From assembly GCF_036785885.1 (NCBI RefSeq), contig NC_092312.1:14216001-14280000 (forward strand): a stretch of DNA of 64,000 nt, written 5' to 3'. Positions 5,583-48,033 of the stretch are shown here, one piece after another. The stretch comes from Coffea arabica (taxonomy: Eukaryota; Streptophyta; Magnoliopsida; Gentianales; Rubiaceae). Each line of letters begins with the position of its first letter. Position 1 is the first letter of the stretch. A program made the position numbers and the translations under genes. The notes under the pieces were generated by a model that was given only the letters and a program-made list of their open reading frames with translations, searched no databases and was not told the origin of the DNA.

Positions 5583-5591
5583 AATGAGGAA
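5583..5591. repeat. Left 9-bp target-site duplication of the MULE
   Basis: AATGAGGAA here recurs exactly at 15796-15804. The match can be stretched to AATGAGGAAAG because the next two bases agree, so the element edge is uncertain by two bases. Nine bases is the usual Mutator-superfamily duplication. Confidence 0.85.
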
Positions 5592-5740
5592 AGGGTGAAT
5601 TCTTACTTTGTGATGGAAAAAAAAAATGATTCTACAACGAGGGCGTTTTTTGAATGAGTTTCTGTAATTGGGGTGTTCGCATTCTGAGAATGCGAGCTCA
5701 GTGAGCAGAATGCAAGCTCAGTGAGGAGCTCACCGCCAAG
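5592..5740 (+). repeat. Left terminal inverted repeat of the MULE
   Basis: It matches the reverse complement of about 15600-15795. Conserved landmarks in order are CTTTGTGATG, TTCTACAA, GGGGTGTTCGCATTC against GGGGGTCTTCGCATTC, then AATGCGAGCT with short AGCTCA repeats. The segment 5691-5740 contains several copies of AATGC(G/A)AGCTCA, candidate transposase-binding words. Transcription of the transporter probably once started across this point. Confidence 0.85.
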
Positions 5741-6190
5741 ACTCCATTTCGAAAAAAAAAAGGCAAAAGTGCACAGACGAAGCAGCAGTGCCTTTTATAG
5801 CTGTCGAACAGAAAAACAAATAATACGAAATTGTACGTAAAAGCACAACAAAGAAAACAGAGGTGGTCGAAGCATCCAAAGACCGGAGCTGAGCGGATCT
5901 TCCAAAGACTGGTTCCGCGCGTGCCGCTTGCCAAAAAATTTTCTGCATTGCCGTCCCAACTCTCCAACAGCATAAAGGTTAGGCTTTTTCACTTGCAATG
6001 CCTCACTAATAGCATTTTAAGTTTAATTAATACTTGAATACCTGAATCCAAGACAAGTTCAGATTTGTGGTGAAATTTGGGTTTAAATTTGACGTGGGTT
6101 GTTCTTATTTTTGCATTTTTTGTGGATGGATTTGAGGATATACGTTATATTTTGCGAATTCGTACAATGTTTGCACTCTCCAATGTTGGA

Positions 6191-6408
6191 GCAGTTTATT
6201 TGCCGTTTCTGCAATTAGTGCAGAAAAAGCATGATCCGAGCTCGGATAAGACTCAACACAGACGGATCCGAGCTCGGATGTTTTCGATACGAGCTCGGAT
6301 CCATAGTTATTCACCCGGATCCGAGGGCTCGTCTGATCATCCTTTGACACAAATCCGAACCCTGTTGGATCCGAAGGATGCCATAAATTATCCGAGCTCG
6401 GATCTCTG
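6191..6408 (+). repeat. Palindrome block P1
   Basis: First of three blocks containing repeated GATCCGAGCTCGGATC or near copies: 6233-6247, 6265-6279, about 6288-6302 and 6391-6404. It also holds the shared word GAGGGCTCGTCTG (6323-6335) and begins with a conserved lead CAATTAGTGCAG. Blocks P2 (12301) and P3 (14187) have the same order and orientation. See the findings. Confidence 0.85.
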
Positions 6409-6464
6409 CATTTCATAATACAATGCGAGGTGTGATTTTTTTTTTTAATTTTTTTTTGGGATGC

Positions 6465-6605
6465 CGTAGTTCGAGTTATTGAGAGCTCCGTGAGTTCAGT
6501 TTTGGTGAATGCGAAAACCCTTTGTACGTAGTCCCATTTGTACATAGTCCCATGCTCAAAATGCCCCATTTGTAGAATTCTTTTAAAATTCATCATAATT
6601 TTTTT
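6465..6605 (-). repeat. Internal TIR-like copy inside the MULE
   Basis: This segment resembles the right terminal repeat in the same orientation. It has GTGAATGCGAAAACCC, a spacer, TTTGTAGAATTC, an A/T run and AAATTCATCA, as at 15690-15777. It is inverted relative to the left TIR only 0.9 kb away, so 5592-6605 looks like a small element of its own. I could not find a target duplication around the inner copy. Confidence 0.65.
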
Positions 6606-7517
6606 TTTAAATCTACTGCACAACTATTAGTTTTGGTCGAAACACTATGTACATTGGACAATGTATGTTTTGCAATTGGAGCTTAGAAATTTGGTATGTA
6701 GTTTATAGATTGGAGCTTTTGCATTTCATGGATATTTGGATTGTGAGCCCCTTTATAGGGGAGACTATGTCGATATTTTTGTAGATATTTCTTTGTGAGG
6801 GCAACTGACTATTTGGTAATTTATTTTATATTACAACTACCATTCCTTATGCATAAGGCTTAATTCGGATTTGATACAAGCCATTAGCTAATTTATGTTA
6901 TATTACAACTATGGATATTTTCGGTCACTTTGAGGAGACGATGGTTTGTTTAATTTTGTGAGCCGTAGAAAAAGGCGGTAGAACATGAAATACCAATATA
7001 TTTTAAGGCGAATTGATGGATTGAAAATCACTGACCAACCTTGTAATGTTTTTTGTAATTGGCAAAATCTATTATGCTAAAAAAGTGGCAAAATAAGTTA
7101 CAGGGAAAAACATTAATTTTGTAAGATTCATTGGTATAATATCACATCATTGTCAATGTGGATCTTGTTATGCGGTGTGAATGTGGAGCCCAAATATATA
7201 TAACTTCCGGTACATTTCTTACGCTTGTACATTTCTTACCCTGTTTGGATTTGCAGATAGAGAGTTGTAGTCTATTTTTAAGGGAGGCTCTGTCCAATTT
7301 TTCCAAAAACTTCGTTCGGAGTTTTAGGCGATTCGTATCGTCATTTATAGTATATTTCATACATGTTTTCAATTTTTTCATCTTCCTTCTTCTCATCTAA
7401 ATTAGTCTAATTAATTGTTCCAATTTCGACCTAGAGTCCACCCTCTTTCATTTGTTTGGACCCTTGGACTATTAATTTAAATTTATTGTCCTAAAAATAG
7501 GGATACATTTCACAGAC

Positions 7518-10201
7518 ATGTCTGTAGAAAGACCTCTGCGGGTAAACCTATACTGGGGAGGACAAATACATTACGAGGGTGACTTTGTTTGTTATTTGCC
7601 TCGTACTTCCAACCGGACATTCATATTGAGGCATAGAATTGGATACGGGGAGTTGGTTGACAGGATTTACCACTATATTGGGGTCGATAAAGGGGTGTTC
7701 AAGCTGAAATTGTTTCTTCGTCAACCGTTGGAGAGTTCCAAATATACTGTTTCCGCAGTGGTGGATGATGAAACTCTTGATGTAATGTACGATCTTTGGA
7801 TCGAAAGAGTTTCATACATGGCGGAGATTTATATCGAGAAGGAAAAAATCGTCCAAATGCCTGTAGTTAATAGCGTATTCACTGGACCAATATGTAATGT
7901 TGGTCCAATGATGTCGCTTGTACATGCATTCATGGATCCAACAAAGTTTAACTTTGGTTCTAGTTCAGTCGTTCAAGAGACTTCATCGGCATGTCACTAT
8001 ATGCATGATGATCGATCTATGTATTCATTAGAACCAGACTCACACCCTGGTCAAGGTTGTCGCAGTTCGGCTGAAGATGATCTATATGCTAGTATACATG
8101 ATAGACTCCGTGCCTCTGAAGAAGATAATCCGGAAGACGATGACCGGGAAGTTGATGCGGAAGAGGTTGAAGAGTCGGAGTCGGAAGATGTGTCTGGTAG
8201 TGATTCGGATGAAGAGCATGAAGGTGGGGATTTAAGAGTAAACCTCGATATGTTCCAAGAGGACAGACGCAATAGCCCAGCTGGCAGCTCTGCATATGTG
8301 CCAAGAGGAATGGCCTTTTTCTCCGATCTTGGGAGTATAGATGATGATGATATAGAAGAGGAGGGTGGATTGGAGCGTATTGTAACATTCTGTGAGGAGA
8401 ATAATAATATACGTTTCCATATGAGATTTGAGAGTAAGCAGCAGCTCAGCCGAGCAGTTAGGATGTGGTCCATCAATCACAATAGGTAGTTCAGAGTTAT
8501 TGAGAGTAAGAGTAACACGTGGTTTGGTAAATGCAAATCATCAATTGAAAGAACTCCTTCCACTTCAACTTCCCCATCGTATCCACCATGCGACTGGTGT
8601 GTTAGAGCCGTAAAGAAAAAGACCCATGAAATGTGGCAAATTACAAAATGGGTCAATGACCATAACTGCTTGGGCGATATGATTAGAAATAACAATACAA
8701 GCCTCACAGCTTCCGTTATTTCAAGGCACATCCTCCGTCGGGTTGAAGATGACCCTGGATTAAAGGTCAAGAACATACTAAGTGACGTTAAAGAAAACTT
8801 GAAGGTTGATGTGTCTTACAAAAAAGCCGGGTATGCCAGACGTAAAGCAATTGAGCTTGTGTTTGGATCTTGGGAGGCGAATTTTTCCGAACTACCACAG
8901 TATCTTGATGCCCTGGTACAATCCAATCCAGGCACCGTGGTAGAGTGGTCACATCATTCGGATAGTTCGGATCGAGTTAAGACCTTTAAATATGTATTCT
9001 GGGCGTTTGGGCCAGCTATTGAAGCATTCCACATGTGCAGGCCAGTTATATGCGTTGATGGCACTCATTTGCGTGGCGAATACAAGGGCAAACTCCTTGT
9101 TGCAGTCACTCAAGATGCGAACAACCACGTTCTACCAATTGCTTATGCCATAGTGAATGAGGAGACGATTTCCAGTTGGTCGTGGTTCATGGAACAATTG
9201 AGATATAATGTGGCGCTTGATCGACATCCTATCTGTGTCATTTCTGATCGCCACAATGGTATCATCTATACCATGACACACTTTGACTATTGGGAGGAAC
9301 CTTTAGCGTACCATAGATTTTGCCTGCGACATGTTAGGAGCAATTTGATGACACACTTCAAAGGTTTACACCTTCGCAAGTTGTGTTGGGCAATGGGAAG
9401 GGCAAGACAATTACGCAAGTGGCGAATGTTCAGGAGAGAACTGCGAAGCATGTTTCCGGATGCTTGAAATTATCTGTCAGCCATTAGTCCAGAAAAGTAG
9501 TGCCTAATACACGACGATGGCCGTCGTTGGGGTATTCTAACTACCAACATATCCGAAAGCTATAATAATGTCTTGCGGGGGGCGCGTCATTTGCCAATTC
9601 GTGCATGCATTGATATGACTTTTCATCGGACAGTTGAATTATTTAAGAGGAGAAGGGAAGAAGTTTCACATTGTCGCAATCCTTTTCTCCCAAAGATATG
9701 GCGGCGTTTTACAGTTGGTGAGCGGAAGGCAGGCGCCCACAGAGTCGTTGAGTTCGATGGCCCATCGGGCGTATACAAGGTAATCACTGGGCGGCGTGTC
9801 GATGGTAAAGGAGGCAATACGCAAATCATCAGGTTTTTTGATAAGACATGCTCCTGTGGAAAGTGGCAGATATACAGGCGTCCTTGTTCACACGCTTTGG
9901 CGGTGTGCAGGAATAGATGTGACAATCCGGGATTGCTTTTTGACCAGCATTTTACCAAGATAAGGTGGGCCGTCCAGTATTCAGGGAAGTTTTTCCCACT
10001 GCCGCATCAAGATACTTGGCAACAGCCTGGGTGGGACCTGCAGGCAGACCGAGCAAATTTGTGAAACGTTGGGCAGGGCGAGTTCGAGCTAGACGAATTC
10101 GGAATGAGATGGATGAAAGGGATGCAGACGAACCAAGAAGATGTCGAAATTGTCATCAGACGGGTCACAATAGTCGAAATTGTCCGAATTATAGGTCTTG
10201 A
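7518..10201 (+). pseudogene. MuDR-type MULE transposase, 3 stops and 1 frameshift
   Basis: Would encode the transposase that cuts and inserts the element. One frame runs from ATG 7518 to 10064 with only three stops: TAG 8487-8489, TGA 9465-9467 and TAG about 9498. After about 10047 the frame slips by one base, and the protein continues to 10201. Domains in order: an N-terminal region typical of MULE proteins (to about residue 110); an acidic Asp/Glu/Ser linker (about 190-240); a MuDR DNA-binding region around the first stop, with WQITKWVNDHNC after it; the MULE DDE core with VDGTHLRGEYKGK, VISDRHNGI and CLRHVRSN; a SWIM zinc finger CSCGKWQIYRRPCSHA; and a C-terminal CCHC knuckle CRNCHQTGHNSRNC. 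The motifs are intact. The stops replace a Gln/Glu-like position and two expected Trp codons, consistent with C-to-T decay. Confidence 0.93.
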
Positions 10202-10844
10202 TTTGATCGACTCCCTAGAGATTGTGGACTAATGTTAGTGCATTTCTTTTTGCTCGTGGGGTTCCAGTTACTTCATTTGTGTAATTTTCTGGATTTATTT
10301 TAAATAATTACATTAGTGACTTTCATTGTTCATTAGTTAGAATTGTTGCTTCGTTTTGTACTTTGATATGTATTGAAATAACTAGTTTACACGTGCAGCC
10401 TAACAGTTTTATTCATTGCTCGCTAAATCCCCTATCCATTGATTTGTAACTTATCTGTTAAAAGAATGCTTGGAAGGTGTGTTATATATGTAAGCACTCT
10501 TGCATGTACAGGATATGAAATTTTTGTATATATTTTGGCAGGGAGTGATGGCCGCTTTATAGGGGAGATTCTCTCAAATTTTTATATTAATTGGTAAAAT
10601 ATAAATACGCCTTACATTGATCCACGCTATGAATACATAGAGGGATAACAAATGTTATTAAAAAAAATGTAAATACAAGGTAAGGAGTTTTATTGTTATT
10701 GTATAACGGATATATGGTCAAAACTTGCTAAAATTTGACATCCCTACCTTTTTTGATCAAAAAAAAGTGGATACAGTATACTTTTTGGATATTACTTATT
10801 CATTGTTCTTGCAATTTAATCGTTGCAGATATTTGTCTGGGATT

Positions 10845-13752
10845 ATGGCCGACACCCCTATTCCTGCAGGCCTACATCCAGGACCATACGTGCAGGACAT
10901 TATATCGGCGGGAACTGCACACCGGGCACATTCCATTTTTCACGGACATATTCAGGGCAATCAGTTAGATGTCAGACGGTATGACAAAGAATTTTGGGAG
11001 CATACGCCTATTCCTGATCCGATTTGTCGTTATATTGCCTTGGCTGGATTTGAGGGGGTGCTAGGCAGTGGATATCAGATGGTTGATCATTCTTTGATCA
11101 CAAGTTTAGTGGAGAGATGGCGGCCCGAGACGCATACATTCCATTTACCGGTGGGAGAAGCTACCGTGACATTACAGGATGTAGAGGTGTTGTGGGGTTT
11201 GCACATCGATGGTCCACCGGTTATAGGGGTAGACACATACCGCAGCATTCAGGAGTGGGGAGCCATCTGTGAGGAGTTCCTTGGATTTTCTCCTGCAGTT
11301 GGATACTTTGATGGACAGAGGCTAAAATTGGGATGTTTAGCAAGAGCCTTGGATACAGAGTTGCCAGCCGATGCTTCAGATGCCGAATGTAGGCAGCGTG
11401 CGCGCATCTACATCTTACTTTTATTAGGTGGACATTTATTGTCGGATAAGTCCGGAAACAAAGTCCCTTTGTTGTATCTTCCATTACTGCGGGACTTGGA
11501 AACTGTTGGGTAATATAGTTGGGGTAGTGCGTGTTTGGCGACTCTCTATCGGTCACTTTGTGATGCCACGCATCCTGCCAAATCGGCTATTGCCGGTCCC
11601 TTAGTTTTGCTACAGGTACATTACAAACAATATGAACATCAATCTTCGAGTTTTTTCATTTTATCATTTTGCAATTCTAACATTGATTCTAATTTTCTAA
11701 CAGGTCTGGATTTGGGAACATATACCAACTATGCGTCCGAACAGAATCGCGCCGTTGGAGCATTACCCTGGTCCATATGCAGCTAGGTGCGCGTTTCGCA
11801 CCCATTTAGGTTTTTTAATGGCATTTGATAATCCAACCAACTCACATTTGCCTAAGCTTGGTTTCCTGTTTTATTAAATATAGGTGGAATAATGACTTGG
11901 ACGTACACAGAGTTGCTAGGCATGTTGTGCCCGCATTCCGAGATCAGCTGACAGGACTGCGTCCTGAAGAGGTATTGTACATATGTCCGGACAATAGGCC
12001 TTTTCTGTCAATATCTGGATAATTCAAATCATAAGTTTGTCATACTGCATTGCATAGGTTGTTTGGACTTTGATGTGCATGTTATGGCCAAAAGTGCCTT
12101 TTTTGTGTGAAAAAGGGAAAAACGTGTTTGGAACCTCACCCTTCGATTTGCAATGTAGCAGTGTTTGATGTGTTTTACGAGATTGGATATTATACTTTTG
12201 GTATATTACATGTGCGTGGGAGGTTAGATGGCCTAAAACGTTTGTCTCCCGCGCGTTTTGGAATTGTTTAGCAAGAGTGCGAAAATTGGGGGAAAAATTG
12301 CAGTTTCTACAATTATTGCAGAGAACTTCAGATCCGAGCTCGGATCCTAAGTGCACAGACGGATCCGAGCGCGTATCCATTGGTCCGAGCTCGGATCCAA
12401 AAAATTTCAAATAAATTCGAGGGTTCGTCTGTGCTTCCGAAGGTGTGGATCCGAGCCGTGACGGATCCGCACCCTTTCATGTTCGATCCGACCTCGGATC
12501 GGTGTTTTTTGCTCTATATAGTTGTTTATAGCGAAGTTCTTTTTTTCTTGTCGAAATCATTCTTTCATTTTTATATTTTTTCCAGTTCATATGGCAGCCA
12601 TATTCGGAGGACGTTCTCGCTTCTCTTCCTGCGTATTGTACTGCAGGTCGGGACATTTGGAGATCCGTAACGTATCTTATCTGCTGGGATGTAGTTGAGC
12701 CGCACCTCCCGCATCGGGTTATGCGGCAGTTTGGATTAGATCAGTCCCTGCCTACTATGAGGTTAACGGATAATCAAGCAGCTCTACATTCTATAGATCG
12801 CCGTGGTAGGGTGAATCAAGACTGGAGCACCACGCATAGACAATATCTTGATATTTGGACTGATCGACATGTGCATGTACAAGACGGCACTGTAATTGCA
12901 GATACTACATATCCATCGGATGAGTATGTTCAGTGGTATCGGGAGCGGGCGGTGATTTATATCTTAAATCTGAGTCGATTTCCCGCTTTTCCAGAGGGTT
13001 TTCAGGGTGATAGCGCTAGGGCACAATATCTTGTACAGTTTGTTTCCGATTCACTTTTAATAATCACTTCCGGCGTATTCAATGTTTAAACTAATTTGTA
13101 CCCTAGTATCTCATTCTAATTCTTATATTTGTTTTTGCAGAGTGATGCCATGTCTCGAATGTATTTCATGGCATAGGACTCTCTTGTAGTTAGTGATGAA
13201 CAACACAGCGGATACTTGCAAGAGTTGAGCGACTTTGCATCCACGTCTTTGCATCATGTAGGAGAGTCACGCCGACTTGCATTCCGCCCTTCACACGTAC
13301 CACATGAGATTCCACTTTTTCCTGATACATGTCGTGTCCAGCGAGCTCCTAAAAATACCCAGGGAAGTCAGCATGGCGGTGGGCGACGTCGTAGACTCCG
13401 ATCACCAGAACCAACCATACAGACTAGCTTCCATGGAGGTGATATGGCTACGGAAGACCAAGCTACTTTTGTCACACCTCAGACCGAAGGCATGCATGGC
13501 AGAGGTGTATCGATTGGCCAATCTCACAGGTCCCCTGTGATGTACACAGAGTTTACAATCGATAGGGACTCACATCACCATGTTTCTGAGCAATGTGAAG
13601 GAGGTGAAGGCACAAGCACTGAAAATCAAGATGCTACACTGTTATCGAATATTACTCAGGTCAATACAATAGTGCCAAACCAACCACGTCGAAGCCAAAG
13701 AATACCCAAACCAACAACATGTGGTACTCATGGGAAACTTGGGCACCATTGA
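10845..13752 (+). pseudogene. Plant mobile domain (PMD/MAIN-like) gene, 5 exons, 2 stops
   Basis: A MAIN/MAIL-like plant mobile domain protein carried by the transposon. Cellular relatives act in gene silencing and genome stability; the role inside MULEs is unknown. Exons read as 10845-11615, 11704-11786, 11884-11971, 12586-13041 and 13141-13752, all in compatible phase, about 670 codons. Family landmarks are ALAGFEGVLG, LITSLVERWRPETHTFHLP, TLQDVEVLWGL, SAIAGPLVLLQ, VWIWEHIPTMRP, DVHRVARHVVPAFRDQL and WRSVTYLICWDVVEPH. The tail is low-complexity and basic and ends RRSQRIPKPTT. TAA at 11511-11513 stands where Gln is expected before YSWGSACLATLY, and TAG at 13174-13176 interrupts exon 5. Intron 3 (11972-12585) is swollen by palindrome block P2. 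It follows the transposase by about 640 bp on the same strand. Confidence 0.9.
12039..12535 (+). repeat. P-unit copy 2 with palindrome block P2, inside a PMD intron
   Basis: About 500 bp within intron 3 of the PMD gene, homologous to 13857-14400. The shared word GTATATTACATGTGCG lies 130 bp upstream of the palindrome here and 129 bp in the other copy. A further shared stretch reads CCTCACCC, two bases, CGATTT, one base, CAATGTA. The core block 12301-12502 has a perfect GATCCGAGCTCGGATC at 12331-12346, a partial copy near 12383 and CGATCCGA/TCGGATCG arms at about 12484-12501. Splice sites of the intron are intact around it. Confidence 0.85.
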
Positions 13753-13856
13753 TTGCACGCTACTTGTATTGTTATTGTATAAATAACCTTACTTATGAAT
13801 TACATACTTTTGTTTGTGACAATTTTTTACATATGCAGTTATTCTTACGAAATTGT

Positions 13857-14400
13857 GTTTTAAGTGCTCCAAGGGCAAATTCCATTGCATATACATGCAC
13901 TGTGCATTTCAAGTGAATTTTGGTGATATCATGGTTATAAAAGCATGTGGACGTCATTTCATATGTATTTAATACCCAAAAATGCCCTTTTAGTGTAAAA
14001 GTGAAAAAATGACCAAAGTTCCTCACCCCTCGATTTCCAATGTAAATGTGTTTGTTGTGTTTTGAGAGGTTGGAACATTGTGTTTGTGGTATATTACATG
14101 TGCGTTAGTCTTTAGAATTGATCCATGTTTGTCCTATTTCCGAATTGGAAGTGGCCGGAAAAAGGAAAAAAAAGTTCCAAAAAATTGCAGTTTCTACAAT
14201 TAGTGCAGAGAATCACGGATCCGAGCTCGGATCACAAGGTGCCCAGAAAGATCCGACCACGGATGAAAGATCCGAGCTCGGATCCAGTTCAACCCAGATA
14301 GATCCGAGGGCTCGTCTGTCTTTCTGTTGACACTGATCCGAGCCATGTCGGATCCGAGACCTTACTCAACCGATCCGACCGCGGATCGGTTCGCGGATAT
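13857..14400 (+). repeat. P-unit copy 3 with palindrome block P3
   Basis: Same orientation and order as copy 2, starting just past the PMD stop codon, so it would lie in the 3' UTR or downstream. Perfect GATCCGAGCTCGGATC stands at 14218-14233 and 14269-14284, GAGGGCTCGTCTG at 14306-14318, and CGATCCG/CGGATCG arms at 14371-14388. Confidence 0.85.
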
Positions 14401-14432
14401 AGCAGAAACGAGGCTTCAGACTCGTTTCTGCT
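14401..14432. other. Perfect 12-bp stem-loop after block P3
   Basis: AGCAGAAACGAG, an 8-base loop, then CTCGTTTCTGCT, followed by a T-rich tract. The arms are exactly complementary. It directly abuts P3. It may be a 3'-end or structured RNA signal for the PMD transcript, but plant pol II does not use such hairpins as a known rule. Confidence 0.6.
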
Positions 14433-14439
14433 ATTTTTA

Positions 14440-15599
14440 AAAATTTTCTTCCCTCTTCTCACCGAAACCCTACCCCTTCCTTCCAATCTTCCATTTTAAC
14501 CATCAATTATCCAATCTTCCATCATAAAAACCTCCAAAAACCTCTTCTGATCAGTAACCCCAATCTATTGTACCAACAAACAACATCAAACGGAGGACCT
14601 TTCTTTGCTTTCATTTTTTTCCTTTTCCTTTCCAACTAACAAACAAATAACATGCAATTCATAAAAATAACTTATATAATTTTTTTTTTAAATAACATTG
14701 CGTTATGCAATTTCTAAAATTATGGTTGACATTGTAACATATATTAATGACTATTAACTATTATATTCTTATAACTAATATTCATTGGTGTCAACAAATA
14801 AATACGATTCATTAATAACAAAGGAAAATTATAATTTGATCAAAAACATTTATTTCATACAAAAGGAAAAACACTTAATATTTTATTCACAACAAATACT
14901 CAACACCTTATATGTTAACAATTTCATTCTATTTTTACATTGATCTATAAAATAGAAAGAATATTGATCTATGAGATAGAAAGAACTATCATGTGTACTT
15001 TTTCCACCATTTAAATGTATTATAATTAAATAAAGTATTTTCAACCGTACAATTACCAATTTTTTTTATTATAAAAGAATTATGCATGTATAGTAAATTA
15101 TATTAAAAAGATTATTGTTAATCTGATTTTGTTTTAGCTCATATTTGATGAGTTTAGCCACGTGCAAGTTCTAAAATAAAAAAAATATTATTCCTCTAAA
15201 CATTACAGATTTTTAAACAAAATTTCTCTAACCTTTCTCCGAAAAATAAGATTTTCGTACAGATTTTAAAATAACATTTTACTACCGACACCATTTTAGT
15301 AAAGGCAACTTCTACAAAACAAACAATATTTACATTTACTTTTATATTTTTTATGGAGCTCGTACATATCATTTTAAATTTTTTTCCTAACATTTTTTAA
15401 ATTAATTTTCTAAAAGTCATACTTATAAATGCGAAATCTAACAAAAAAGTTAAATACAATTTTTGCAGGTCAAATTTAACAAATGCGAGCTATTTGCAAA
15501 ATTTTAAATATTTGCAACATTTTTTAAAACAAAAATTAGAAGCTTTCTGCAAATAATTCCCTCCCTCTCAAAAAATACAAAATGCGAAAGATAAGAGCT
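14440..15599. other. AT-rich right arm of the MULE, no gene
   Basis: Long AT-rich non-coding stretch between P3 and the right TIR. Near its end it picks up GAGCTCGCATTT words (for example about 15593-15604), the same subterminal word as in the TIRs. No frame resembling a protein was seen. Confidence 0.6.
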
Positions 15600-15795
15600 C
15601 GCATTTGCTTTCTGGAAATAATTCCCTGGCTCTTAAAAAATAAAAAAAAAATATAGAGAAGAGCTCGCATTTGTGGAATGCAAGCTCAATAAGCTCGCAT
15701 TTCACGAATGCGAAGACCCCCGGCCGGAAATTAATCCCAAAATCATCCCTTTTGTAGAATTTTTTTTAAATTCATCACAAAGTTGGAAATTTCTC
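15600..15795 (-). repeat. Right terminal inverted repeat of the MULE
   Basis: Inverted partner of 5592-5740. It carries GAGCTCGCATTT repeats, CATTTCACGAATGCGAAG, TTTGTAGAA, an A/T run and CATCACAAAGT, and ends at CTC next to the duplicated AATGAGGAA. Confidence 0.85.
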
Positions 15796-15804
15796 AATGA
15801 GGAA
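15796..15804. repeat. Right 9-bp target-site duplication of the MULE
   Basis: AATGAGGAA, identical to 5583-5591. DNA to its right is therefore the original upstream region of the phosphate transporter gene. Confidence 0.85.
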
Positions 15805-18204
15805 AGCAGCTGTGTGCTAGCATTGGAAACATCCCTACATGTGCTTATAAGTAATATTTATGTTGGTTCATTCCTATGTTCATGATCTGTACTTTGTTTT
15901 CTTGTTTTCTGCATGAGAGTGAAATATTTGTTTGCCCTTCAAGTTCAAGTAATCTAGTTGGTAGCTTAGATAGGACTTCTAGTTCCTGATCCCTTGTGAT
16001 ATTTTCTGAATCCAAATCAGATTGCAGGATCCAATGATTGGTACAGCTAAGAGGAGGAATGATGTTATTCCACTGCTGCGCCTGCTTACATGAAAACCGA
16101 GGAAAATTGACAAATCCTATGTGTTTTTCTATACTTTCTTTGCTCTACTTTGTGTGCTCTTCTTTCATTAAAGCCAAGGACAAGCGACAAAACCTATGAT
16201 TTTATCTACTACTTTCTTAGTTCTGCGTGCATTAAGCTACAACTGGAATCTTTCTAATGGATTACATAGTAAATACTAATCATGTGAAGCTGTCTTAAAG
16301 CATTTCATGAGCTAAACACTTTTGATCACGAAGCAAGACAACTATACAGATATTTTATTTTTCCTTTCTTTTGCTTAAAAAATGTTCTGCGGAATATTCC
16401 AATTGCCTATTTTTCTTTTACACTTTGCAAAGGGAACTTGTAATTTACTGGTATGCAAGACTACAATATTTATATTAGTTAGACCCTCCTATTTCTTGAA
16501 AAATCCTTTTATTAAATTTGCCCTTGAATATTGAGAAATATGATCTCTTCGGACAAACACTGTTTGGAGCAAAAATGTGCATTGTGAAAACTTAACGGTC
16601 GTTGGGATATATTTCATGTTTGATTGCATTAGTCAGACCCTAGAATCAAAGTTGGATTATTCTTTTCATATGTTTAAGAAAGCATAATCATCATCAAAAA
16701 GAGGCTCCAAGAAAACTTACCTGCTCAATTGCTCAATTTAGTGAAGCTGCACGAATTCTCTTGCTTAACTTAGGCATATACAGATTGGTGATGCATGCAA
16801 AGCAGGTCATTGCCATCCATTCAATTCTCTCTTCACACTAATTAACAAGATAGTGTCCACAAGGACCACAACTATTGCCAGCTAATTCTGAAGAGTTTAA
16901 AGGGGAGATGGACATTTTCTAAATCTTTGATGAATTTCATTCTTTTTTTTTTTTTGAAAAACAAAAAGGATATATTAATCCAAAGGTCGGAGGATAATTT
17001 CAGCGAAATTCAAGTAACTTGGACGATTTAGCAAAATGTGTCAAATTATGTGCAACCTTATCTATTTCTCTAGAAATCCATACTACATTCACAATATGCT
17101 GGTCTAATAAGGAAGTGTGAATATCCTCAATTACATATGTTTTGTCTATGCGACTAGTTGGTTTTGTGCATTGCTCCTTAATGTTTTGTTCTTAGAAGAC
17201 AAATAATATGCATCCACTATACAGGTAATTTCATCAGTTTGCTTCTGTGTTCCATTCTGTGTATGCTTCCTAGCTACTTTGAAGATATAATCTTCTTTTT
17301 TCATTGTCATTACCATCCGATTAATTTGTTACATTCTAAATAATTTTTGGAGCATCTAAATAGATAGAAGTCCTGTACTTAACTAGTTAATCTAGATGTA
17401 TAATTCACATCACTTTCAAAACAACGTACTGTATCTTGTTTACTGCATGTGTAAATAGGTATTTTTTTTTTTAAGTATAAGTGAAAGGGGTTCGAATTTA
17501 GGATCTCTCATGTACACTTCCTTCTCTCCCAGAACCACCCAACCAATCCCTCCCCTTGTGTAAATAGCTATTTGAAGTAATTGTGGATGCTATGTGATTA
17601 AGGGATGGTTTTTGTTTGATTATTTCACTTGATTTTGGATAATTAATTTTTTCATATTCTTATTTATTTATTCTTCTACATCTTTAAACTTTTATAATAA
17701 ACAAAGAAACTAGAATCTATCCAAGAGCAATATTTAGTTGATTTTATCATTATCTATAGTAATTTTTCATAATTAGATTTTGCAAAATCCACTGCAAAAT
17801 GGCCGTAAATAGTTTAAGTTCTGTCTTTAGTTTTCCTTCTTTCTGTACCATTAAGCCCCTAGTACGTGCAATGCAATTTTGAAAAACGTGACTAAGCTCT
17901 AGTCACAGGTACAATTATGCTATTACACCTTTTTCAAGATTTCTTGAGAACCCAGGCAGCTAAACTTGAAGAAGATTGAATGGACAAATGAAAGAAAAAG
18001 GAATGGATAATGTCCAATCAACAATGTCAGCAAGGACCCATCTACAGCTCCTGTCTTCTTTCCCCTAATAAGTTAAATTAATCATAAAATTCATTGTGGA
18101 TTGGATGGCTGTATATAAGAAATTAAGCAATCATTATCCTTCAAGCAGCACGTGTTATCATGGCTACCCGTGCAACAGGTGCACCCAACCATAAAAGTAG
18201 CTTT
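15805..18204. other. Former transporter upstream region, then intergenic DNA
   Basis: Once adjacent to 5582, this should contain the transporter's ancestral promoter and part of its 5' UTR. I can point to no definite TATA box or motif. From about 16900 on it is ordinary AT-rich intergenic DNA with one LINE remnant. Confidence 0.5.
16943..17165 (-). mobile_element. 5'-truncated LINE, RNase H tail fragment
   Basis: On the minus strand a continuous frame ends ISREIDKVAHNLTHFAKSS, followed after a few residues by a stop and then an A tail (the T run at 16943-16954). The pattern WIxREx(N)xVAHxLAK is the C-terminal RNase H-like motif of plant L1-type retrotransposons. Only about 220 bp remain, the usual result of incomplete reverse transcription. 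Confidence 0.7.
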
Positions 18205-18213
18205 TAAAAAAAA

Positions 18214-19628
18214 GGAAAAATCGTTCAAAACGTCCCTCATATTTTACAAGATAACTTTTTTCATCCCTCACTTTAAAAAGTATAATTTTACGTTTTTTAC
18301 AAATTCAAATTGACCAAATTTGGTCCCTACCTAGGTTTCCGATTAATTTTTGATAGGAATTCACCACGTGCAGTGCACGTGATCATATTTTAAGGGTAAA
18401 ATTGTCAAATCAAATTTATATAATTCGATTCATAATCCATTACATTTCATAAAATAAATTTTTTCGTCCCTTACATTTCTTAAAATGAATTTTTTCATCC
18501 TTCACATTTTTCAAAATGAATTTTTTCATCTTTTATTGATCATTTGTGTGAATAATTTTTTTTTAAATCCATGTATATATCTATTTGATTTCACTTAAAT
18601 AGTATGAATAGCATGTGAAATCAAATAGAGATATATTACATACTATTCGTACTGCTCAAGTGAAATCAAATAGATATATACATGGTTTAAAAAAATTGTT
18701 AGTTTTTCACTTATTTTAATTTTTTTTACTCAAAATTTGAAAATAAAGAAGACATTTAATCCTAAATATTATCCAGTATTTATATCGAATTAAATTTGGA
18801 CAGAAAAAATAAACAAAAGAAATGTATGACAAAAAGAAATTAGTGATTGGCATTTTCAAATTTTAAGACAATCACAAGGCAAGTACTTCAACTGTTGGTC
18901 TTAAAAGTGTCAAGTAGAAATTTCGTATTTAAACTGAAATTTGTTAGCACAATTATAGAATTCGAATTAGGACTCATTAATTAGATGAACTTATTAGACA
19001 ATTCAATAAATAAATTATTATCAAAAGAGAAATATCACAAATATTGAATAGGTTCAAATGGTGAAATCATATAAATATATACATGAGTTTCAAACAAAAT
19101 TATTAGTTTTAAACCCCTATATATATTTATTGAATAGCATGTGTACAACTACAATTGACATGTTTAGATGAAATCCAATAGAGATAAATTATATGTTATT
19201 TGTAGTGTTCAGATAAAATCAAATATACATATACGCGGGTTTATAGAAAAAAAACTATTCATACATATGATCAATGAGGGATGAAAAAATTCATTTTGAA
19301 AAATGTAAGGGATGGAAAAATTCATATTTTGAAATGTGAGGAACGAAACAATTCATTTTGTAAAATGTTAGGGACCAAAAAATTCATTTTGTGAAATGTG
19401 AGGGACTATGAATCAGATTATGTAAAAATTTGATTTGACAATTTTACCCTTAAAAATGATCACATGCAAGTCACGTGGTGGATTCCGGCAAAAAACTAGT
19501 CAGAAACCTAGGTAGGAACCAAATTTGGTTAATTTAAATTTGTAAGGGACGTAAAATTACACTTTTAAAAGTGAATGACGAAAAAAGTCATCTTATAAAA
19601 TGTAAGCGACGTTTTGAACGATTTTCCC
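18214..19628. mobile_element. Foldback (MULE-type) element, about 1.4 kb
   Basis: The left end (GGAAAAATCGTTC, then AAAACGTC) and right end (reverse complement GGGAAAATCGTTC, then AAAACGTC) are long inverted arms matching for several hundred bases. Matched words include GTAGGGACCAAATTTGG-like and ACGTG-flanked segments. Each arm carries tandem units of about 40 bp built on AATTCATTTTG. The centre holds further nested inverted repeats around CTATTTGATTTCAC. Flanks are TAAAAAAAA (18205-18213) and TAAAAAGAA (19629-19637), 8 of 9 identical, which fits a Mutator-type duplication. No coding capacity. Confidence 0.75.
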
Positions 19629-20108
19629 TAAAAAGAACCAAGCAATTGGGGTGATTGTTATACTTGTTGACATATTTAAATTTTATCCAATCTATTATTT
19701 ATATACATGTACTGATAATTATTATCTTTCATTGTGTTTATACATTTTTTAATTAATTTTTTATCTTTTCAAATATTTAATACTTAAATTACATCTTAAA
19801 CGAGTGTTTGTTTAACATCCATTATCCTGACCCAAATAAATTTTAGATGGAATATACCAGGGAATGTGCGAAGGCAAAAGCTCAGGAGCGCAAAAAGCAT
19901 ATTCCTCTAAATAAACAGAGAAACTATGCTGGTTGTTCAAACCTTCTTTTATCCTTAATCCACACGACCAAAAGAATGTTTTTTATAATCAACGTGGTGG
20001 GAATAAATGGTATATTCTTCTGCCGAATAGAAAAATGAAAGCGAGAGCTTGAGGATGTAAATTGAATCAAGGAGTGTGATGATAACAAGAATTTGGTTAT
20101 CTATACTT

Positions 20109-36065: not shown

Positions 36066-38281
36066 TTCTTTAAAAGTAAAATGCATTTTGTTATATTCAT
36101 TGTTTTGGCTTTGGTAATTTTAACTGAATGGGATTGAAGTTTATTAAAGAATAAGAAGATCTGGCTAAATCATGGGGATAAGTAATTATATTCCTTAATT
36201 AACGTGATTTTGCACTTGACTAACACATTATCCATTCTCTCCAGTCTCCACTCCATCTTTAAAAATTGTATATTAAGTTGTATTACATCTTAGCCTCAAA
36301 GGTTTCTTGATACATTTGATTACTTTCTTTGGTCCTTAGTGTGGACTTGACCATTTCTTTTGATTCGACAAGATTCTTGAAGTGAAAGTTCACAAATTTT
36401 GCATATTGAGAAGAAGAAAAAAAAAAAATCCCACAGGTGTCTGTCTTCCACATTTAGTCCACTCATGTTGACAAATTGTTTAGTCCCTTTCTTCTTGACA
36501 AATTGTTTACAATTAATATCTTGAAGGGAGAATTGGCCCATGTTCAAATTGTATATTCGAATTGGCTCCTTCATTTCTTTAAAATTAAAAAAAAAAAAAA
36601 AAAAGGATCCTCCATTTCAAAATCACGAGTTAAAGATAATTCAGGTCGTTATCATGCGCATTCGGTGCAATACATGGTTCGACTTGATTGTTGGACTTTA
36701 CGCATGATTCCTCCTCATATTCTACATACAATAGTGTGGTAGGAATAAACTTTCCAATTTATTGGTTCAGTCAAATGAAACTTTGAAAATGGATTGGTTT
36801 TGGTCCATTAAAATTGTTTAAACATCTTGAAGTAAGCACTACTATTGCTCCTGCAATCATTTGGGGAGAATCAGTTGCTGAGATAATTTTGCTGTCAATG
36901 TCAATCAATTCGAGACTATAGGGTCTTGGTCGCTACATCACCAACGCCTGAACCAAAGTAGCTATTGGAAATTCGAATGGACTTTCTCAATTAGCCATAA
37001 GTACTTGTGAATGAACGCTGAATTCGAGCAATTGAATTCTCTTTCATCATGAAAACTCACGAAAAGTGGGTCTAAATTATTAACAAATCAGCAACCAAAT
37101 TCAAACCCACTGACCAAGCTATAGGGATAATGCTTGATGTTTTTCAATTATATACTTCTACACATTATTTTCTTTTGTCACGTCATACGATATTCACATG
37201 TTATATGGTACATGAACTAGCTCATAATTGTATCTTTACGACTTTTACACCGATATGCAAAAGCTTCCCGTTGAATTCTCTAATCTATGAACTTTCCACC
37301 TTATCTATCAAAGAAGAAATTATCAACCAAAAGAAACAAGATGGCTTAGCTAGAAAAATGCTGCAAATTTTCCACTGAATTTTTTCATGCATTTTTGGGC
37401 CTACATAACACAAAATCTTGCAGGCTTAGCCAGCATCACATGTATGAAGGTATAAAGGTCTTGTCAAATATCACCTCTACAATTCTCGGTCAATTTCCAC
37501 TCAAAAGATGATGAATAATAGAGTATAATCCGTATGGGTCGACTGCATCTCCCATGTTACCCATTTCAAAGTGAAGTTGTCCTTTGTCAAGCCGAAACAT
37601 TTTGCACTCCATCATCGCCCTGAAGGAAGGCAGACAATCAAGAACAGAAGATGAAGAACATGTGTCATGCCAATAGCGTTATGAAAAAAAGGCGACAAGA
37701 AGGCAATACATTTCACTTTCCAAGTTCAATGTTTGTTTTTCTAATTACTACATTCTCCCAACAAAATGTTGCTAATTGGAGATAATGTTTTTTTTTTCTT
37801 CTTCAATCATATTATTATTTTGTAGTTTATAGGGCATGGGCAATGGGCACTTAAGTTAATGTGGAATGGAATTTGATGAACATGAACTCCTGAATGATGT
37901 TTTTAAAGGTGACTATGACCCCTTAACTTTAATTGGTTTTTCCTCAAATACAATTATTAGAACCTCGCCAATTTGTTAATTGTAGTCCGCTTTCATAATA
38001 CTAAACAGTCATTTCAATGTAGTAGATCACAAGGCATGTAAAAGGTAATGATTTTGTTGCAATACATCCCATTAAGAACTATGCAATGCTAATTATGTGA
38101 ACCTATAAAATGGATAAGTGTGTCTGGTGGATAATATAATTCCAAAAGGCTTAATGGAGAAGCAGGCCTTGTTTTCATTTTCAATAAGTAGTGAAGTAAT
38201 TATTATACACCCACAACATCTTGCTGCTAGAATAATTGTTGGCTTTGGTGGCAGATAGAGCAAGATAGCATCACTTTTTAT

Positions 38282-38282
<1 letters not shown>

Positions 38283-38337
<55 letters not shown>
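38283..38337. repeat. (AT)n microsatellite
   Basis: About 27 AT dinucleotides without interruption. Likely length-polymorphic. Confidence 0.95.

Positions 38338-47989: not shown

Positions 47990-47992
<3 letters not shown>

Positions 47993-48031
<39 letters not shown>
47993..48031. repeat. (AT)n microsatellite
   Basis: About 19 AT/TA repeats in a row. Confidence 0.9.

Positions 48032-48033
<2 letters not shown>

Follow-up and report, generated by a model that had tools for sequence, protein, structure and literature searches.

Half-site arrays and a PF20167 gene form a module common to Mutator-like and Athila-like Ty3/gypsy elements of Coffea arabica

Introduction

Which protein, if any, reads a set of ordered, palindrome-rich blocks that recur within one transposon? 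This question is raised by a stretch of 64,000 nucleotides of the Coffea arabica genome (contig NC_092312.1, positions 14,216,001 to 14,280,000), in the following called the window. It contains a Mutator-like element (MULE) with a mudrA-like transposase, a PMD gene and three blocks, P1, P2 and P3, which a preliminary description had related to a perfect palindrome and had proposed as possible dimer-binding sites for the transposase or the PMD protein. We report that the blocks belong to a module with a gene of family PF20167, named T32, and that this module is also present in Athila-like Ty3/gypsy retrotransposons. In our reading, to which we assign a probability of about one half, the blocks are half-site arrays for a dimeric DNA-binding protein, most likely T32, with a role like that of VANC, and constitute a module common to class I and class II elements.

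Results

The half-site as the working unit of the blocks

All three blocks exist with the same order and orientation of their parts, and they are located as had been described: upstream of the transposase (P1), in an intron of the PMD gene (P2) and 3' of that gene (P3; Table 1). The palindrome is less perfect than supposed, as the exact 16-mer occurs only three times, in P2 and P3 (12331, 14218, 14269), and P1 contains merely 15/16 versions. With at most three mismatches, GATCCGAGCTCGGATC has 12 sites in the window, all of them inside the blocks (0.03 expected from shuffles). Each block consists of four palindrome boxes (A, B, C, and E) at near-fixed spacing, some with one to three mismatches, plus a half-site pair with a 6-bp spacer (in P3, GATCCGA-N6-TCGGATC) and lone half-sites. 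P1 and P3 contain GAGGGCTCGTCTG in exact form, P2 a version of it with one altered base; the lead of P1 is the inverted repeat TTTCTGCA-ATTAG-TGCAGAAA, those of P2 and P3 being less perfect. GATCCGA is found 25 times in the window, 23 times within the blocks. In 25 chosen stretches, four of which are whole short loci, 230 ATCCGA half-sites were counted; 48 inward pairs have a 2-bp gap, and the others (134 of the 230 half-sites) are single or differently spaced. The centres of the 48 tight palindromes are GC in 33 cases, AT in one, and non-self-complementary in 14 (ten of these CC). Paired compensating changes, for which a check had been proposed, are thus not the rule, and it is the half-site, not the perfect palindrome, that is kept. 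We take the half-site GATCCGAG, often present as inverted pairs two bases apart, as the working unit of the arrays.

These counts bear on the idea of the palindromes functioning as hairpins, in RNA or DNA. The perfect 16-mers and the inverted-repeat lead would suit it, but the centres are often non-complementary, for which reason we rejected a hairpin function, and more than half of the half-sites lie outside tight pairs. Moreover, an Rfam search of the element (to an E-value of 5) gave two weak hits, both outside the blocks and far below the gathering scores, so that an Rfam family was rejected too. We regard hairpins as extremely improbable.

Loci other than the window are numbered with L in the following; MA (L025 plus L026), MB (L027 plus L028) and L010 are sister copies of the window MULE. 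A comparison of palindrome arms with spacers, likewise proposed beforehand, came out in favour of the arms: among eight block copies the identity is 0.924 for arms and 0.670 for spacers, a difference that was not reached when the arm mask was shifted circularly (0 of 177 shifts). The corresponding values are 0.902 for the lead and 0.964 for the GAGGGCTCGTCTG box outside the arms. Note that the arms were defined on P1 alone and that the scored rows are P2, P3, L010, L013, L018, L023, MA3, and MB3, some of them closely related, with P1, MA1, MB1, and L009 excluded. The observed/expected ratio of CpG is 1.14-1.41 in the blocks, 0.83 elsewhere in the element, and 0.42 in the remaining window; the elevated value of the blocks is compatible with low methylation or constraint.

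Both results speak against the view that the arrays are repeats with no function at present, or else points at which silencing by RNA-directed DNA methylation (RdDM) starts, and that copying between elements keeps them alike. Tandem repeats can be sources of small interfering RNAs and targets of RdDM (PMC10398659), and the arrays do recombine, as in MA, where P3 is fused to another array. However, the arms are conserved above the spacers in the eight rows, close relatives included, half-sites persist in the distant L011 lineage although their spacing has changed, and the CpG content of the blocks is not the depletion expected from long methylation. This explanation is improbable.

Distribution of the palindrome in the genome

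In the 1.198-Gb genome there are 1994 exact copies of the palindrome and one of its reversed control. As carriers, 20 stretches of 10 kb were taken from the first-listed places on contig C1, a non-random sample that includes tandem copies, and compared with six protein queries. T32 was detected in seven of the 20 stretches, and a small gag-like open reading frame (ORF) with at least 79% identity in eight. Close relatives of the window's MULE transposase or PMD are present in two, L009 (MULE transposase) and L010; a distant transposase match (33%) is found in L011, and gypsy reverse transcriptase in L012. Three stretches (L014, L020, and L021) contain none of the six query proteins beyond one weak match; L014 matches the right terminal inverted repeat (TIR) of the window MULE.

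The motif is therefore not confined to the MULE family, as had been considered: it is also found in the Athila-like Ty3/gypsy loci L013, L018, and L023 and in the loci with the small gag-like ORF. Given these carriers and the 1994 copies, a MULE-only site was rejected. The preliminary description had named an ordinary satellite, found widely outside MULEs, as the outcome that would make a site function unlikely. The wide occurrence is real, but the blocks are dispersed and ordered, their spacers are unlike, and they are not single units arranged head to tail; we accordingly rejected an ordinary tandem satellite.

A module common to MULE and gypsy elements

In L013, gag-pol is followed by an extra ORF, T32, which matches PF20167 at 1e-23; this is the arrangement of an Athila-like Ty3/gypsy module, the lineage name being based on PF20167 in PMC11728184 and not on a reverse-transcriptase tree. 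The polyproteins of L013 and L023 match models of reverse transcriptase, RNase H, and integrase, and L023 contains gag-pol and a T32 that is incomplete because the locus ends within it. The interval between pol and T32 in L013, L018, and L023 has a counterpart in the window (Table 1), which takes in P3; the block itself is 86% identical to those of L013 and L023 and 82% identical to that of L018. A second array of L013 lies 3' of T32, and the stretch that hosts it recurs 5' of gag in L023 (1.1 kb, 92% identity), which suggests that this array lies in the long terminal repeat (LTR). MB matches L013 piecewise from about 0.2 kb past the pol stop, across T32, and into the LTR array, with a 0.9-kb unmatched stretch ahead of T32. 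The order in the fuller MULE copies is array, T32, array-bearing LTR piece (MB; the same in L010). This unit is an Athila-like Ty3/gypsy module that is also present in the PMD-MULE family.

Neither a MULE transposase nor a PMD was found in L013, L018, and L023 within the 10 kb fetched for each, which argues against both proteins as the natural reader of the arrays; T32 is the gene that the two element types have in common. In the proposal of the preliminary description, one part stands, as the half-site grammar suits a dimeric DNA-binding protein, whereas the assignment to the transposase or PMD protein is contradicted by these gypsy loci. For the latter assignment one may cite that the 18 matches of ATNCGAGCTC in the window all fall within the blocks or the terminal regions (5690, 15595, 15661), and that the authors of PMC5418596 speculate on an anti-silencing function of PMDs in MULEs. 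The half-site of a second array type, ATCCGGCC, however, is devoid of this TIR word. The transposase was rejected as the main reader despite ATNCGAGCTC, and we consider a reading of the sites by transposase or PMD quite improbable.

The half-site motif changes with the T32 lineage

Eighteen T32 loci were scored for half-sites in an interval of 700-1500 bp upstream of T32, for which shuffles gave at most 0.4 half-sites. L008, a near copy of L007, was left unscored, and for L032, L035, and L039 the start of T32 was obtained by extrapolation. Thirteen loci belong to type I: upstream GATCCGA arrays are present in 11 of them, ATCCGGC arrays in none. Ten of these loci have 4 to 13 GATCCGA half-sites in the interval, and MB has ten farther upstream. 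At all three loci of type II, whose T32 is about 31% identical to that of type I, the interval contains ATCCGGC half-sites (16, 13, and 10) and no GATCCGA; these arrays are built on the half-site AATCCGGCC and lie at the same distance upstream as in type I. The two type III loci, L032 and L039 (25-27% identity), have neither array upstream, and no other repeated motif stood out there. L011, with a T32 that is 68-73% identical to type I and saturated at synonymous sites relative to L013 and MB, retains the lead and the half-sites at altered spacing. Seven type I loci (MB, L029, L033, L034, L035, L037, L038) and all loci of types II and III had been picked regardless of palindromes; among these seven, six have the array. 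In the loci examined the half-site motif thus changes with the T32 lineage, L007, L035, and L031 being exceptions. For the second motif, AATCCGGCCGGATT was found 1684 times genome-wide and its reversal 0 times. On contig C1, at 19.73-19.78 Mb, AATCCGGCCGGATT is part of a satellite-like array whose units recur about every 2025 bp and mostly contain it twice.

The type II loci are also of importance for the possibility that the arrays are enhancers bound by a host transcription factor and copied among transposons for the sake of expression, T32 being a passenger with another role. The arrays are located within the LTR and 5' of both T32 and the transposase, which are usual positions of promoters, and several element types have them in common, as a host factor would predict. 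But one fixed host factor fails to explain why type II T32 is preceded, at equal distance, by ATCCGGC without GATCCGA in three of three cases. We consider host enhancers unlikely.

Constraint on T32 and its probable exchange between elements

Between the T32 genes of MB and L013 the nonsynonymous distance (dN) is 0.040 and the synonymous distance (dS) 0.302, a ratio of 0.13 (457 codons; Nei-Gojobori, own script), which shows purifying selection on T32 between a MULE and a gypsy copy. Comparing L010 with MB, the synonymous distance is 0.94 for T32 (270 codons) and 0.12 for PMD exon 1 (221 codons), so that one copy seems to have received another T32; among the three compared with L010 (MB, L013, L007), L007 is nearest, with a synonymous distance of 0.315. 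Taking the best 150 hits each for PF20167 and PMD, 16 of the former are at most 9 kb away from one of the latter, with 0.34 expected at random places. All 16 are on the downstream side of PMD, nine in the same and seven in the opposite orientation. Counts of T32 are lower bounds, since 92 of 3595 and 150 of 4013 first-look candidates were scored.

A T32 protein tree being too flat, a DNA tree was calculated from 18 rows; these did not include L023, whose sequence was too short, nor L008 or the rows of types II and III. Its nine MULE rows are not one clade (approximately unbiased test, p = 3.9e-29); this outcome depends on their interspersion among seven rows for which the host element is unassigned or weakly supported, and for the 11 labelled rows alone (nine MULE, two gypsy) one change suffices. 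The tree agrees with several exchanges and leaves their direction open. Because of its limits, the number and direction of transfers rest more on the synonymous distances, the opposite orientations, and the LTR piece in the MULE. The lone LTR piece points to a gypsy-to-MULE transfer of that module, and the PMD-MULE family probably gained the module by more than one acquisition.

The MULE of the window

The element carrying P1-P3 is a MULE: it has the transposase domain PF10551 (E 4.6e-19, above the curated cut-off), TIRs, which are diverged, and a target duplication of about 9 bp. A Pfam scan of nine window pieces and three T32 proteins gave matches to transposase, SWIM, CCHC, PMD, and PF20167. 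The duplications are ATGAGGAAA in the window and TGCTAGTTG in MA; as identical flanking bases extend up to 11 and 10, respectively, the exact border may move by 1-2 bases. In-frame stops in both the transposase and the PMD gene indicate that the window copy is decayed. MB retains about 4.1 kb (8461-12574) with T32 and the LTR-type array, which are deleted from the window copy, whose arrays have outlived their own T32 gene. MA is without the equivalent of MB 8281-12341, and its P3 array is thereby fused to the LTR-type array (L025 8774-9167); given this array-array junction, the arrays may promote deletions. P1 is also found in MA, MB, and L009, whereas P2 is a mere remnant in MB and missing in MA.

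Table 1. Positions of the features in the window
Feature	Position	Strand	Remarks
TIR-MULE holding P1-P3, 10.2 kb	5593..15796	+	ends from comparison with MA; target duplication of 9 bp
Target-site duplication, left	5584..5592	.	end comparison with MA
Target-site duplication, right	15797..15805	.	end comparison with MA
Left TIR	5593..5740	+	AATGCGAGCTC unit at 5689; inner border approximate
Right TIR region	15541..15796	-	AATGCGAGCTC units at 15595, 15661; inner border approximate
Block P1, lead and array	6200..6404	+	boxes 6233, 6265, 6286, 6389
mudrA-like transposase	7518..10230	+	MULE domain, SWIM finger, weak CCHC knuckle; stop-interrupted; end approximate
PMD gene, several exons	10845..13752	+	in-frame stop; PF10536 in three pieces, one below curated cut-off
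Block P2	12295..12503	+	boxes 12331, 12362, 12382, 12485
Segment like gypsy pol-T32 interval	13837..14596	+	79-80% identity; L013 over 13837-14596, L018 and L023 over 13837-14560
Block P3	14181..14390	+	boxes 14218, 14250, 14269, 14372
Deletion junction (T32 and LTR-type array lost)	14591..14597	.	window 14591 = MB 8461, window 14597 = MB 12574

Some further features were observed in the element. A direct repeat around CTTTATAGGGGAGA (6738-6779 and 10542-10583), 5' of the transposase and of PMD, resembles a duplicated core promoter. A copy of the right TIR lies inside the element at 6484-6598; the region of about 5593-6600, including P1, is thus itself bounded by inverted ends. Directly after P3, at 14400-14434, there is a hairpin, TAGCAGAAACGAG / CTCGTTTCTGCTA, followed by sequence resembling a plant 5' leader. 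Elsewhere in the window, 18213-18530 and 19311-19629 form an inverted repeat pair (83% identity), and 38279-38337 and 47992-48033 are short low-complexity repeats matching on both strands.

Discussion

As the T32 gene is flanked by arrays in two transposon classes and its lineage predicts the half-site at the loci studied, T32 is the simplest reader of the arrays. According to this proposal, a dimeric T32 protein would bind arrays of GATCCGAG half-sites, and bound T32 would keep the promoters of the element open and counter silencing in cis, similar to VANC on the motif arrays of VANDAL elements. In gypsy elements the arrays are found within the LTR and 5' of T32; the MULE retains extra arrays upstream of the transposase and, in the window copy, in the PMD intron. 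We infer both binding and anti-silencing, the latter by analogy with VANC. Crude hydropathy and heptad counts indicate that type I T32 has a basic core, a heptad stretch, and no stretch resembling a membrane helix.

Several observations weigh against T32 as the reader. Two of the 13 type I loci, L007 and L035, have no upstream array, and the type II locus L031 contains seven type I half-sites farther upstream. Among the eight small-gag-ORF loci on C1 (at least 79% identity), six carry both motifs and two the type I motif only; such joint occurrence suggests either that motif and T32 are not strictly paired or that non-autonomous elements make use of both factors. The match of motif and lineage is not independent of linkage, as an array travels with its own T32, and all three type II loci belong to a single family. 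Furthermore, the arrays could serve host factors; no sequence relatives of T32 were found in the PDB, and PF20167 is annotated merely as a putative plant transposon protein.

A wider form of the T32 proposal, which we put forward tentatively and hold to be rather doubtful, is that T32 and its own arrays would be a self-contained anti-silencing cassette. Within a single genome it would have passed more than once between class I (a retrotransposon) and class II (a MULE) and diverged into at least two specificities (GATCCGAG, AATCCGGCC), and non-autonomous elements with both site types may exploit both.

Comparison with known systems

VANC arrays, extra ORFs of Athila elements, and MULE-PMD elements are each known, separately. 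Among the matches listed in the open-licence literature, we saw in the excerpts no report of the half-sites, of target arrays accompanying PF20167, or of an Athila-type gene that a MULE carries together with its arrays. A search with the motif letters had its only match in a text on colorectal cancer, and one with the letters of the DOWN motif had, among the matches listed, no title on PMD proteins.

An extra ORF partly similar to PF20167 has been described for Athila 14 of sunflower (PMC11728184, PMC6317226), corresponding to the order of gag-pol and PF20167 ORF in coffee; the excerpts of that description contain neither a half-site array nor a function of the ORF. MULEs with a captured PMD, for which the authors suggest anti-silencing, combine transposase and PMD as the coffee family does (PMC5418596). 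There, however, PMD is fused to the transposase, in several grasses and Amborella, whereas here it is a separate multi-exon gene, followed by T32 in the fuller copies. MULEs are also known to acquire and keep foreign coding sequence by transduplication, e.g. the Ulp1 domain of KIU genes (PMC13317346). What was probably acquired in coffee is a gene of a retrotransposon, together with the candidate regulatory arrays belonging to it.

A close parallel to the proposed function is the VANDAL family of Arabidopsis MULEs, which encode VANC anti-silencing proteins (PMC5735166, PMC10398659). In both cases short motifs are repeated in noncoding regions of a MULE that encodes a further protein, the motif differs by element family, and other sequences may carry it: the unrelated repeat AT9TSD1 has the VANC6 motif. 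The VANC motifs, YAGTATTAY and AGTTGTCC or AGTTGTAC, are other sequences than the half-sites of the coffee arrays, and binding has been demonstrated for VANC, whereas T32 is a candidate reader. The clustering of short motifs in noncoding regions of the element is as in VANC-type systems, and so is, apart from the exceptions named and with linkage as a possible cause, the change of motif with the lineage of the encoded protein. Here, in contrast, the candidate protein belongs to PF20167, and arrays and candidate gene are common to an LTR retrotransposon. VANC is not known to belong to PF20167.

Do Athila and Tork elements encode additional proteins by which they influence their own methylation? 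A sunflower study of 2026 left this question unanswered (PMC12844716). With T32, candidate target sites are available for an extra gene, along with two matched specificities and a transfer to a DNA transposon that took place naturally, by which the methylation question becomes a simple binding-swap test. If the T32 proposal is true, sequence-specific anti-silencing would not be a peculiarity of MULEs, but a module traded across transposon classes.

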